Shown one piece after another: positions 39,166 to 44,315 of a stretch of 64,000 nt of DNA. The notes beneath the pieces are model-generated. The model saw only the letters and a list, made by a program, of their open reading frames with translations, was not told the origin of the DNA and did not search any database. This DNA is from Alphaproteobacteria bacterium. Its GTDB lineage: Bacteria; Pseudomonadota; Alphaproteobacteria; UBA8366; Aestuariispiraceae. Where the stretch lies: positions 124,001 to 188,000 of the forward strand of contig JASJDC010000003.1 of NCBI GenBank assembly GCA_030065235.1, read 5' to 3'. The translations under genes and the position numbers were made by a program. Position 1 is the stretch's first letter. Each line of letters opens with the position of its first letter.

Positions 39166-40077
39166 TCAAGGCGATGACGACAGTCTTGTATAGATCAGCA
39201 CGGCACCCAGCACCACGGCCCCGCCGGCATATTGGTTCGGCGTCAGGATTTCCGACAGCAGCACGGCCCCGGCGATGATCGAGATCACCGGCTCAAGATT
39301 AAACAGCAGAGCCACCGTGCGCGCTTCGGTGATGCGAATCGCCGCAAGCTGGGTCATCAGCGCCAACACGAAGAGCACGCAGAGCGCGGCGACGCCGGCC
39401 CAGCCGATATCGGTTTGCGGCAAGATCAGGCCTCCGAACAAGGGGGCGGCGGCGAGGCCGGCGAGCATGCCGATGCCGTTTGTGGTGACGATGGCGGCGG
39501 CCAGCGAGGTTGTTTGCATGAAACGCCTCGACATCAGGATATAGGCGGCGACACAAAGCGAACCGCAGCACACCAACGCCAGTCCGCGCCAGTCGAGCGC
39601 CGCCAGATCCGGACCCAAGGCCGACGCCAAACCCGCAAAGGCGACCAGGAAACACAGCCATTGCGCTCGGCTGGGCGCGGCCCCGCCAACCAGCGGCGAT
39701 AGCGCGGCGACGATCATAGGCCAGGTGTAGAAGACCAGCGCGGCCAAACCGACAGGGATGTAGGCGACCGAAGCGAGATAAAACACGCCTTGCGCCATGA
39801 GCAGTACGCCGCCAATCGCCAACGGTGCGCTCAGGCAGTCGCGCAGACCGGGGCCGCGCGTTAGCGCATGAAAGGCCAGGAAAACAAAAGCGGCGGTAAA
39901 GGCCGAGCGAAGCACGACCAAAGCGATTGGGGTGACGCCGCTGTCATAGGTCAGGGCCGCGATCGGCGTGTTCAAGGCGAAGGCGCTGGCCGACACCAAC
40001 GTCAGGGCAGGGCCAAGAACGGTCCCTTGGGCCGCCGTGCGGGCGCCTTGGTTCGGCCCGGCGCCGTTATCGGTCAC
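39166..40077 (-). CDS. DMT/EamA-family transporter
   Basis: A 303-residue inner-membrane protein with ten predicted hydrophobic segments in two EamA repeats (LTLVSASAFALNTPIAAL at the start of the first, WRGLALVCCGSLCVAAYILMS at the second). The family exports metabolites such as amino acids. It starts at GTG one base after the ankyrin gene stop, so it is likely co-translated with that gene. A motif near the end, LFNLEPVISIIAGAVLL, is characteristic. Confidence 0.85.
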   Translation of the reverse strand: MTDNGAGPNQGARTAAQGTVLGPALTLVSASAFALNTPIAALTYDSGVTPIALVVLRSAFTAAFVFLAFHALTRGPGLRDCLSAPLAIGGVLLMAQGVFYLASVAYIPVGLAALVFYTWPMIVAALSPLVGGAAPSRAQWLCFLVAFAGLASALGPDLAALDWRGLALVCCGSLCVAAYILMSRRFMQTTSLAAAIVTTNGIGMLAGLAAAPLFGGLILPQTDIGWAGVAALCVLFVLALMTQLAAIRITEARTVALLFNLEPVISIIAGAVLLSEILTPNQYAGGAVVLGAVLIYTRLSSSP

Positions 40078-40078
40078 A

Positions 40079-42949
40079 TCAGCCGACCCGGAACGGGTTC
40101 CCGATCAGAACCCGATAAAACCCTTCGCGCGCCGCATGTCCGATCATCTTCAAATGGATATAGACCGGCAGCGCCCCGTCCTGATCGGGCCAATAGTGAT
40201 CGTAGTCCGAACTCCCGACGCTCGGCTTGAGGCCCTCAAAGAAGGGCTGCTCCAAGGCGGTTTCGCGCACCGGGAAACCGGTTTGTCTGGACGGCAATGC
40301 ATTATCGATGATCGCGACCACGTCGTCGAAGCGTTGTCTGGCCTCCAGCTCGTTCGCGAAAAGCCTACTGTCGAGCTGGATGGCCACGAGACGGCCGCCC
40401 GACCGCATGTCAAATTGCGCGACCACGGCGGCTGTATCCTCAAGCCAGGACTCGGCGTTCAACTTGCAGGCCACAAAACCGTCGATGACATCGCGGCAGA
40501 CTTCCGTCTTCGGCTTCGCCGTATCGAGCGTGTCGCGCCAGGTCAGGCCGAACATCAGCGGTTCATAGGCGGGGCCAACGGCGGCGATGGCGATCCGCTC
40601 CCGAACCCCGGTGACGCCGCTTTCGCGGGCGAAGGCGACAGCCGTCCGGCCATCCGCGGACCGTTGCGTCGGATCGGCGCCGTTCGCCAACAGCGCCGCC
40701 ACAGCCGTCTCCGACCCGGCGCGGGCGGCCGTCATCAGCGGCGTCTCTCCGTCCCGTCGGCTGTTCACATCAACGTCGCCTTGCAAGACCAAGGGCAGGG
40801 CGCTGAGCAGGCGCGCATTCGACGGCTCTTCGGCGATGATATGCAGCAAATCGTCTGACGGCGGCACACCCGCCGAGATCATAGCAGCCGCATGATCCAG
40901 TTTGCCGCTGAGCACGGCGTGATCGACCGGCGGGCGCGGTCCTCGACCCCATCGGTCATCCGCCGCCACGGTCAGCGCTGAGAGATCGACATCCGGCGCC
41001 ACGCGGCGCAGCAGGGCGCTGACTTCGTCGGCGCCGCCACTCTCAATCAGGTCCGCCAGCGCCTCCTGGATCGTCTCTGGATCGATCAGGCGCGCGCCGG
41101 TTTCCAACCCCGCCGTTTGAGAGCCTGGAAGCCCGCCGGTCGTGTCGGAGCGCAGCGCGATTTTTGTCGGGGCGGTCGGCGCCGGCGGGCGCGGATAGGC
41201 GGTGCGATCCTCGGCTGGCGTGGACGCTGGAGCGGGCGGGCTCGACAGGTTGGCGGCCAGCGCTATGACCGCGCCCTCTTCAAGCGCGCTCACCATCGGT
41301 GGGACCAGCGGCGCGGTCTCTAGGGTTTGGACGCGTTGGCCGGCGTTCGTCAAATAGGCGGCCAGGGACGGGTAGGCGGCGGCCAAGGCGCGCGGATCGG
41401 CGTCGCAACCCGGCAACGCCGCCACACGCGCCCCGGCATCGGTCAGTATTTTCGCCGTCCCAGATTGGCCATGCGACGCGGCGGCGCCGAGCGGCGTCAG
41501 ACAACCATAGGGGCCGCCCGGCGCGTCGACCGGCGCCCCGGCGGCCAGCATCAGGCGTGTTGGGTCTGTCAGACCCTCCGCCGCCGCCGCGTGCAGCACC
41601 GTTTCGCCCGAGCCGACAGCCTGCATTGGGTCGGCGCCATGCAGCAACAGCGCGTCAACCAGGCTCGGCCCGCCGCCGCGCGCCGCCGCCAACAGCAGCG
41701 GTTCGCCGTCGGCGGTTCGCCCATTCGCATCCGCGCCAGCCTCCAGCGCCGCGCGCAGCCCGGCTAGGTCGCGTCTCTCGATCAGCGCGGCTAGGCCGCC
41801 ATTCTCGGAATGCTCTGCACCTGCCGGAGTCCGGCCGGTCGAAGCATCCTGCGGATCCGTTGGGACCGATGCGACGCTCGGAAAAACGGGGTAGTCGATG
41901 GTCGCTCGACGGTCTGCGTCGCCGCCGTCGCCGGCCGTGACGGCGGCGTAGAACCGGATCGCCGCATCCGGGTTCAAGGCGGCGATGCCGAGCCCGACGA
42001 TGAAGGCGCCCGCCAGAACGCCGCCAAGCCAGACGCCGCGACGACGCCCCGGCCAGACCCGTTCAGTTCGCGCGCCCTGCGGCGGGCGTAGGGCGGCGTT
42101 CTGAGGTCGGGATTTCGGTATCAACGCAGCGTTTGAAGCGCCCGTCGACCGATCGAGCATTGTCAGCCTGTCGGCCGCCTGGGAGTCAGCGCCATTGCCC
42201 CCGCCGTCGGTGCGAGGCTCGGCGTCGCGTTTGAGGAAAGGGGCCGAGGCCGACGAATCGGCTTCATGGTCGGGGTTCGCGGTCGAGGTGTGAGGCGACG
42301 CGTCGTCTTCGCTGCGTGCATTGCGTGGGGCCGCCAACAAATCGCGTATTTCCGGATGTTCGGCGCTCAGCCGATCGAACGCCTCGCGCAGCATGGGCGC
42401 CATCACCCCAGGCGTCTCCAGGTCAGCCGGTTGTCTTTCTTTAGCCACTTGGTCGGCGGCCCTCTTCGTGGAGGCCCCTCGTTCGGCGGTCTCGTTTCGA
42501 CGCCATGGGTCCAAATCGAGATATGAATCTGCGTCCCGTCTGGACGCGCTGTATCGGACCGTATCGAGGAGCTGCTGGGCGATCGGACCAACGCCGGACT
42601 CGACCACAGCGTAACCCTCAATACAGATGAGGGGGTTATAGTCGGTCCGACCGGTGGTCGGCGACAATCGCGCTTCGACCAGCTTCAATTCGTCGTAGGC
42701 GCCGTCTGCGACCAAATCGCCGATCCGGGAGACGGCGTCTTGCGGATCGGACAGGCTTTCCAGGTTCCGCCAATGATCGCCGGCGCGCGCCTGGATCCAA
42801 TAAGACGTTGCGCCGCTGTCCTTGCGGAGGCCCGCATCGCCGACTTGGCCGTCGAACTCCCCGCCGCTCTGGTCGCCCGCGAAGCCATCGGTCTGGTTAT
42901 TGACGTTTGCAGCGACAGGCGGCGTGTATCGATCATAAGATTCTGGCAT
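40079..42949 (-). CDS. Large single-pass membrane protein with ankyrin repeats
   Basis: A 956-residue product. Residues 1-300 form a hydrophilic N-terminal part that includes SYWIQARAGDHWRNLESL, a block I cannot assign. An Arg-rich stop (PGRRRG) precedes one membrane helix at about 304-325 (VWLGGVLAGAFIVGLGIAAL). By the positive-inside rule the N-terminus is cytoplasmic and the remaining 630 residues periplasmic. That part has ankyrin repeats at about 382-511 (DGEPLLLAAARGG, GETVLHAAAAEG) and again before 800 (DGETPLMTAARAGSETAVAALLANGA in part), then a unique C-terminal domain of about 150 residues. The ATG at 42949 has GGAG upstream. Function unknown. Confidence 0.75.
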   Translation of the reverse strand: MPESYDRYTPPVAANVNNQTDGFAGDQSGGEFDGQVGDAGLRKDSGATSYWIQARAGDHWRNLESLSDPQDAVSRIGDLVADGAYDELKLVEARLSPTTGRTDYNPLICIEGYAVVESGVGPIAQQLLDTVRYSASRRDADSYLDLDPWRRNETAERGASTKRAADQVAKERQPADLETPGVMAPMLREAFDRLSAEHPEIRDLLAAPRNARSEDDASPHTSTANPDHEADSSASAPFLKRDAEPRTDGGGNGADSQAADRLTMLDRSTGASNAALIPKSRPQNAALRPPQGARTERVWPGRRRGVWLGGVLAGAFIVGLGIAALNPDAAIRFYAAVTAGDGGDADRRATIDYPVFPSVASVPTDPQDASTGRTPAGAEHSENGGLAALIERRDLAGLRAALEAGADANGRTADGEPLLLAAARGGGPSLVDALLLHGADPMQAVGSGETVLHAAAAEGLTDPTRLMLAAGAPVDAPGGPYGCLTPLGAAASHGQSGTAKILTDAGARVAALPGCDADPRALAAAYPSLAAYLTNAGQRVQTLETAPLVPPMVSALEEGAVIALAANLSSPPAPASTPAEDRTAYPRPPAPTAPTKIALRSDTTGGLPGSQTAGLETGARLIDPETIQEALADLIESGGADEVSALLRRVAPDVDLSALTVAADDRWGRGPRPPVDHAVLSGKLDHAAAMISAGVPPSDDLLHIIAEEPSNARLLSALPLVLQGDVDVNSRRDGETPLMTAARAGSETAVAALLANGADPTQRSADGRTAVAFARESGVTGVRERIAIAAVGPAYEPLMFGLTWRDTLDTAKPKTEVCRDVIDGFVACKLNAESWLEDTAAVVAQFDMRSGGRLVAIQLDSRLFANELEARQRFDDVVAIIDNALPSRQTGFPVRETALEQPFFEGLKPSVGSSDYDHYWPDQDGALPVYIHLKMIGHAAREGFYRVLIGNPFRVG

Positions 42950-43382
42950 GGACGCTCCGGCCCTCCGGCCAAACACTCACCATCAGCAGACGCAGGCTAT
43001 AAGCAGGGACGAAATGAAATCAACGGCCAGTACTTTAAACAGTTATTTCATTAGATGGCGGTTTTTCTTTAACCACTATTTGACCACAGCTAAATATCCC
43101 TTATGGGTATTTGAGGCAGCAGGTCAGCCATGCGCGCTTGTCGCTTGAAATTAAATACTTATCCGATTCGAAGGCGCTGGCCAGAATAAGCGGTGCGGGA
43201 CGGTGTTGAGACAAGGTCGGCGACCTCAACCAGCGGGCTTCACGATATCGCGCGTGATCAGCCACCGCACGAAAACGGCTGCGCCAGGGGCGAAACCGCG
43301 AATCGAATCTTGCGGGCGGGCGTATCGCGGCCTACTCACCGACGAAAGATATGGCGCATACAGGAGATAGCGGGGCTTCCGC
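42950..43382. promoter_or_regulatory. 433-bp divergent spacer with an AT-rich core
   Basis: The longest gene-free stretch of the window, between the ankyrin gene and folP. The part at about 43000-43170 is far richer in A and T than its surroundings and should hold the ankyrin-gene promoter. Nearer folP there is an inverted repeat GTTGAG / CTCAAC (43205-43210 and 43225-43230) around GGTCGGCGACC. I found no convincing ORF or RNA gene. Confidence 0.45.
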
Positions 43383-44315
43383 ATGCAGGATCGATTACGG
43401 GCCTTGTGGCGGGACCGCTGCGCCATCATGGGTGTCGTGAATGTGACGCCGGACTCCTTCTCCGGCGACGGGGTGCTCGGCGATCAAACCCGTCGGGCCG
43501 AGACAGGCCCGGTCGATCAGGCGGTCGATCAGGCGTTGCGCTTCTTGGCGGACGGCGTCGCCATCTTGGATGTCGGCGGCGAAAGCACGCGCCCCGGCGC
43601 CGACCCGGTTGACGCGGAGACCGAATTGGCGCGTGTCGTGCCGGTGATCCGCGCGATCCGGCGCGCGGCTCCGGACGCCGTGATCTCGGTGGATACCTAT
43701 AAGGCGCGGGTGGCGGCGGCCGCGCTCGACGCGGGCGCCTCAATCATCAATGACGTCTGGGCCGGGCGGGCCGATCCTGACATGACCGCCCTGGCGGCCG
43801 AGCGCCGGGCGCCGATCGTGCTGATGCATAATCGTGCGCAATGGGGCGCAGTCGATAGGGACCCGAAATTGGGCGCCGCCTATCGCGCGCCGGCGGCGGA
43901 GACCGGCGGCTCGGGCGCGGCTGCGGGGTCGTTTATTGACCAAGTCCTGGCGGAGACCGAAGCGCTGATCGCAGAGGCGGAAGCGGCAGGGGTCGATCGC
44001 GCAGACATTATCGTCGATCCCGGAATAGGGTTCGGCAAAACGGTGGCGCAAAATCTCGCTTTGATCCGCGAGGTCGGGCGATTCAAGCGGATCGCGGCGA
44101 CGGTTCTGCTCGGCGCCAGCCGGAAGAACTTCATCGGAAAAGTGCTCGACAAGCCGGTCTCGGAGCGCTTGATGGGCACCGCCGCGACGGCCGCCATCGG
44201 CGCTTATGGCGGCGCCGACATCCTGCGCGTCCATGACGGCGCCGAGATGGTGCAGATGGCGGTCATGGCGCGGGCCATCCGGGACGCGGATCCGGGCGCG
44301 GAGGGCGATACATGA
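43383..44315 (+). CDS. folP: Dihydropteroate synthase
   Basis: A 310-residue TIM-barrel enzyme joining p-aminobenzoate and dihydropterin pyrophosphate in folate synthesis, the sulfonamide target. Motifs are GVVNVTPDSFSGDG, DVGGESTRPGAD, ISVDTYKARVA, DPGIGFGKT and GASRKNFIG. AGGAGATAG precedes the ATG. The stop overlaps the folK start by 4 bp. Confidence 0.95.
   Translation: MQDRLRALWRDRCAIMGVVNVTPDSFSGDGVLGDQTRRAETGPVDQAVDQALRFLADGVAILDVGGESTRPGADPVDAETELARVVPVIRAIRRAAPDAVISVDTYKARVAAAALDAGASIINDVWAGRADPDMTALAAERRAPIVLMHNRAQWGAVDRDPKLGAAYRAPAAETGGSGAAAGSFIDQVLAETEALIAEAEAAGVDRADIIVDPGIGFGKTVAQNLALIREVGRFKRIAATVLLGASRKNFIGKVLDKPVSERLMGTAATAAIGAYGGADILRVHDGAEMVQMAVMARAIRDADPGAEGDT

Follow-up and report, generated by a model that had tools for sequence, protein, structure and literature searches.

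The ankyrin gene and its neighbours

The window, i.e., the whole stretch of 64,000 nucleotides that was analysed, belongs to the 4.18 Mb genome of a marine-type alphaproteobacterium and carries on its reverse strand a gene for a 956-residue protein with ankyrin repeats. The features of this gene and of its surroundings are as follows.

39166..40077, minus strand: EamA/DMT exporter gene, directly downstream of the ankyrin gene (Pfam)
40079..42949, minus strand: coding sequence of the bitopic ankyrin protein, 956 aa (ORF call; orthologues)
40082..40591, minus strand: C-terminal domain, predicted periplasmic, residues 787-956, alpha/beta, with the Cys pair C818/C828 and a conserved IGNPF tail
40592..41086, minus strand: ankyrin-like block 2, residues 622-786 (Pfam)
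41405..41785, minus strand: ankyrin block 1, residues about 389-515, with the conserved Cys pair C483/C515 (Pfam)
41978..42034, minus strand: single transmembrane (TM) helix, residues 306-324, preceded by WPGRRRG (hydropathy)
42050..42598, minus strand: linker, predicted cytoplasmic, residues 118-300, of low complexity and poorly aligned
42599..42820, minus strand: N-terminal module, predicted cytoplasmic, residues 44-117, beta-beta-alpha-beta-beta, very probably of a broad alphaproteobacterial family
42950..43382, no strand: spacer between the ankyrin gene and the divergent folP, 433 bp
43383..44315, plus strand: folP (dihydropteroate synthase), divergent from the ankyrin gene and near it in 17/17 loci of relatives

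Inspection of the sequence places the start at the ATG at 42949, with GGAG five bases upstream, and a GTG located nine codons before this ATG is a possible alternative. The stop codon (40079-40081) lies one base from the GTG of the EamA/DMT gene. The protein matches PF12796 with 67.2 bits (cut-off 27.3; 1.9e-18) over two stretches and PF00023 with 53 bits (cut-off 21.1), and it aligns over its full length with proteins of other genera at 26-37% identity. The C-terminal domain shares 36-54% identity between relatives, and 22% in the copy of genome G006. Since the coding sequence is kept across genera, it is no chance ORF, and the sequence-only reading was right to take it as a real protein. The spacer has 54.5% GC, compared with 67% in the ankyrin gene. 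A scan of 42950..43382 for sigma-70-like promoters was empty, no terminator-like site was found there, and the ankyrin locus had no match in Rfam.

The divergent gene, whose product is taken to be dihydropteroate synthase by its sequence, has relatives or orthologues of the ankyrin gene beside it in all 13 other genomes of the family and in four more of the order. The genes between both differ among relatives: in several of them the intervening gene is presumably folB, in f2 it appears to us to resemble a secreted MlaC-like protein, and in f3 we assume it to be a small lipoprotein gene. The f3 genes (L046:8669-9250 and L047:11569-12150) encode lipoprotein-like proteins of 193 aa directly upstream of a short relative of the ankyrin gene; they are 61% conserved between the two genomes, and the one copy scanned against Pfam gave no match. 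No conserved partner gene of the ankyrin protein was found except the folate genes, which may be close by simply through common descent.

Membrane topology and the part following the helix

Only one hydrophobic segment stands out in the protein (306-324), and it was assigned as a TM helix from hydropathy, without a dedicated topology program. A clear TM segment is present in 15/15 homologues. The 25 residues before and after it contain seven and three K+R, respectively, in the window protein; the count before the helix exceeds that after it in 14 of the 15 homologues and equals it in the other one. Cysteines provide stronger evidence on topology than this bias. On the C side of the helix, the 9056 residues of the 15 proteins include 52 Cys, and 52/52 fall in four alignment columns, filled in 15, 15, 11 and 11 sequences. 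The spacing is constant within the 483/515 pair (32) and within the 818/828 pair (10), and the four homologues without block 1 lose exactly the pair of that block. On the N side, 19 Cys are scattered over 14 columns, a count that takes in residues upstream of the true starts. Among neighbouring proteins used as controls, Cys were mostly scattered; a secreted-looking VWA protein showed two invariant Cys columns in addition to scattered ones. The pattern after the helix points to an oxidising compartment, and the ankyrin repeats are very probably periplasmic. Thus, the arrangement proposed by the sequence-only reading, i.e., a cytoplasmic N-terminal part, one helix and periplasmic repeats, is backed by both the Cys pairs and the K+R bias.

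Pfam recognises in this protein nothing but ankyrin repeats, and the PADLOC and NCBIfam matches are confined to the same stretches. The first part of block 2 (622-720) is degenerate; it is retained in the short relatives G015 and G026. In the alignment, long Pro/Ala-rich stretches flank the helix on both sides. Linker lengths vary greatly, and linkers are partly absent in the short relatives.

The C-terminal domain, analysed as residues 787-956, was confidently modelled by AlphaFold2 as an alpha/beta fold (pLDDT 88.3, pTM 0.86). No Pfam or NCBIfam model and no PDB sequence matched it significantly, in agreement with the sequence-only reading, which did not recognise this end, and PHROGs gave nothing either. 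Foldseek against the PDB gave a best E of 0.05 with a TM score of about 0.37, and nothing below 0.001. The best nonsignificant structures include PsbP, TiME, SciW, DcrB and Tsi3 (E 0.05 to 0.4), several of which are Mog1p/PsbP-like. Against predicted viral structures, the sole significant match was an Erwinia phage lipoprotein (E 9.5e-6, TM 0.59), and the second match (E 2.8e-3) is likewise annotated as a lipoprotein. This likeness between models fits an exported domain and gives no function. The two Cys, numbers 32 and 42 of the modelled domain, take opposite positions of one hairpin (strands 29-35/39-44, joined by a tight turn), making a cross-strand disulfide possible. Conserved residues are aromatics and the IGNPF tail, and they do not look catalytic.

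The taxonomic distribution, which the sequence-only reading had proposed to check, confines this domain to its own lineage and one distant family. It was found in 14/14 genomes of the family, in 2/30 other genomes of the order and, elsewhere in the class, in two genomes of a distant family (f91) among 385 sampled. Genome profile searches gave one copy per genome. Named carriers of the domain include Hwanghaeella grinnelliae, Marivibrio halodurans, Pacificispira spongiicola and Aestuariispira insulae; the NCBI taxonomy assigns Hwanghaeella to Aestuariispiraceae, Rhodospirillales, Alphaproteobacteria. These relatives were found with a C-domain alignment as query, while a single-protein query against genome contigs returned none. 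A phylum-wide sample yielded no further credible match; those in G780 (E 0.005) and G715 (E 0.008) were judged to be chance.

The fuller of the two f91 proteins contains, in the same order, the N-terminal module, a low-complexity linker, the helix, ankyrin repeats and the C-terminal domain, and lacks the second block; the other is cut at its N terminus by a contig end. The f3 proteins of G015 and G026 have the N-terminal module, the helix and the degenerate part of block 2 and no C-terminal domain, that of G026 being split over two ORFs. The G006 protein is reduced to the helix and the C-terminal domain, without module or ankyrin repeats. These three short relatives also lie near folP and, therefore, the protein is modular and its parts have been gained or lost in place. 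Moreover, since G006 lacks the module and G015 and G026 lack the C-terminal domain, neither end is always needed.

The N-terminal module and its family

The sequence-only reading treated the first 300 residues as a single unassigned domain. Instead, they comprise a module of about 75 residues and a poorly conserved linker of about 180 residues, and reciprocal profile searches place the module in a wide, unnamed family, so that it is not an orphan. AlphaFold2 modelled residues 44-125 as beta-beta-alpha-beta-beta (pLDDT 84.7). Foldseek of this domain against the PDB gave nothing significant (best E 0.31), the PDB sequences gave no significant match either, and neither Pfam nor NCBIfam has a model for the module.

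A starting profile made of the N-terminal domains of the ankyrin proteins, one f91 protein and one bridging protein matched 58/385 genomes of the class (E up to 0.05). A second profile (A6), built from the larger family alone and with no ankyrin protein inside, matched 89/270 class genomes (33%) at E up to 1e-4. Among 4312 ORFs, it ranked several ankyrin-type N-terminal domains at the top, together with the bridging protein; the window copy was weak (E 0.16). A profile of the modules of six cNMP proteins did match the window copy (E 0.0021) in the same 4312 ORFs, along with ten further ankyrin proteins at E 0.03 or better, and these 11 rank right after one bridging module protein. In the reverse direction, the top six matches of an ankyrin-only profile in 450 ORFs are cNMP-type proteins (E 1.5e-7 to 0.23).

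Profile-profile comparison related the ankyrin N-terminal module to the broad family with 96.7% probability. In hhalign, the ankyrin and cNMP modules scored 42.9, compared with at most 17.9 in 60 column shuffles, and the cyclase and cNMP modules scored 59.4. The direct score between ankyrin and cyclase modules (15.8) is at noise level, as shuffles reach 22.3; since the cyclase-cNMP and ankyrin-cNMP links are both strong, the ankyrin proteins are tied to the cyclases by transitivity. Homology of the N-terminal module to the broad family is thus very probable and, judging by these profiles, the domain represents a diverged branch of a module that is found in the Alphaproteobacteria and has no name.

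This module (consensus YEvqt...G.W.i...f.d...A...A..l....R...vRV..E) is found at the N terminus of one-TM proteins in many Alphaproteobacteria. Most members of the family have 135-175 aa, beginning with the module and ending with one TM (e.g., at L098, L100, L103, L111-L114 and L116), or else about 560-880 aa. Within the module proteins examined, Pfam recognised cNMP_binding in eight, FliL in one, and Guanylate_cyc, the class III cyclase domain, in nine; the cyclases mostly have two TMs. One of the nine is encoded in the genome of the window itself, a 683 aa protein with the module, two TMs and a class III cyclase (L132:4122-6173, G000:C7; Guanylate_cyc 1.4e-13). Genome G014 carries the ankyrin protein, and a module cyclase was not detected there. 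The FliL member (L135:5710-6498, also L099) combines the module, a TM and PF03748 (E 5.5e-7); L108 may hold a similar fusion and gave no FliL match. At L143:1172-3823, one ORF of 884 aa joins the module, cNMP_binding and a short-chain dehydrogenase. In G248, two module copies lie about 1 kb apart, flanking a gene of 166 aa (L134). At L085:8035-9543 (G195), the module ORF switches frame after the module and continues in another one, which suggests a frameshift or an assembly error.

Possible functions and comparison with known systems

We tentatively propose a one-pass receptor or scaffold of the inner membrane. Outside, the two ankyrin blocks and the C-terminal alpha/beta domain, which disulfides probably stabilise, would bind a partner in the envelope; inside, the module of about 75 residues, carried on a long flexible tether, would dock to cytoplasmic signalling proteins. 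This layout suggests that the protein reports envelope events to the cell interior or anchors them to it. Such an envelope receptor or scaffold with cytoplasmic docking is a plausible reading, which we hold with less than even confidence. Ligand binding, docking and any cAMP/cGMP link are all inferred from this architecture. An actual tie of the ankyrin protein to cyclic-nucleotide signalling seems unlikely at present. We also give a low probability to the wider idea that the module is an undescribed domain of cyclic-nucleotide signalling and the ankyrin protein its envelope-facing member; if true, the latter would wire a periplasmic signal into the cyclic-nucleotide network through its module.

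The main rival is a structural tether between the inner membrane and the peptidoglycan or the outer membrane, in which the inner module would be just an anchor or oligomerisation piece. The long Pro/Ala-rich stretches around the helix would suit such a role, as would a C-terminal fold common to a phage lipoprotein, the conservation of aromatics and the IGNPF tail rather than of catalytic-looking residues, and the same-strand neighbour in f2 and f3, which resembles a secreted protein or lipoprotein. However, no peptidoglycan-binding domain was detected with Pfam and the libraries searched, and linkers of such variable length, partly lost from the short relatives, speak against a tether; we regard this alternative as somewhat unlikely. 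The downstream exporter offers another reading, in which the protein would regulate the DMT exporter or form a partner subunit for it, and the one-base gap had led the sequence-only reading to suggest that both may be coupled. The exporter adjoins the ankyrin gene in three of 17 assessable loci, namely the window, Hwanghaeella grinnelliae (L036) and G006 (L045), but none adjoins it in the remaining 14 (L032 is outside this count, as the locus ends too early to judge). With adjacency in just 3/17 loci, the gap is no evidence of a conserved shared function; the proposed coupling was therefore abandoned, and a role in the exporter appears quite improbable.

A periplasmic chaperone or partner of a redox or haem enzyme is conceivable by analogy with AnkB of Pseudomonas aeruginosa, an ankyrin-like protein of the periplasm that the catalase KatB needs for optimal activity; similar proteins are described in other bacteria (PMC10294975). 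However, catalase (PF00199) is absent in the window genome and in G002, G003, G004, G006, G008 and G014, although each of them encodes the protein in full or in part, and there is no catalase beside the gene at the loci examined. Because the window genome has no catalase, an AnkB-like role is disfavoured, and we consider it very unlikely. A secreted ankyrin effector aimed at eukaryotic hosts is hardly credible: the matches to models of Dot/Icm effectors that could speak for it are weak, far below the cut-offs and derived from the repeats alone, and they concern a membrane-anchored, single-copy protein with a fixed chromosomal place, encoded in a genome that has just one other ankyrin gene.

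Returning to the receptor or scaffold that we favour, the module is its more general aspect. About a third of the sampled Alphaproteobacteria genomes encode this unnamed domain, which gains its first architectures pointing to membrane signalling. A narrow literature search on ankyrin repeats with cyclase/cNMP signalling in Rhodospirillales found nothing. The alphaproteobacterial cNMP-binding and class III cyclase proteins share a homologous N-terminal module with the ankyrin protein, but here it is followed by periplasmic ankyrin repeats and the C-terminal domain instead of a cytoplasmic cNMP_binding or Guanylate_cyc domain. The C-terminal domain resembles in its predicted fold the phage lipoprotein A0A5Q2F5G3 (Erwinia phage Midgardsormr38; TM 0.59/0.55), although the identity is 13% and the phage protein is a stand-alone lipoprotein. 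Its resemblance to the Mog1p/PsbP-like fold (PsbP, DcrB, Eag/SciW, Tsi3) is weak, repeated and below significance, with no sequence match. The ankyrin protein has its repeats in the periplasm, as AnkB does, but unlike AnkB it is anchored in the membrane, has a module on the cytoplasmic side and an alpha/beta domain at its C terminus, and occurs in a genome without catalase. Since AnkB already made periplasmic ankyrin proteins known, what is new here is that the protein is bitopic and has at either end a domain absent from the libraries. It is a further, clear example of periplasmic ankyrin repeats held at the membrane, and its C-terminal domain, probably stabilised by disulfides, is described in no library.
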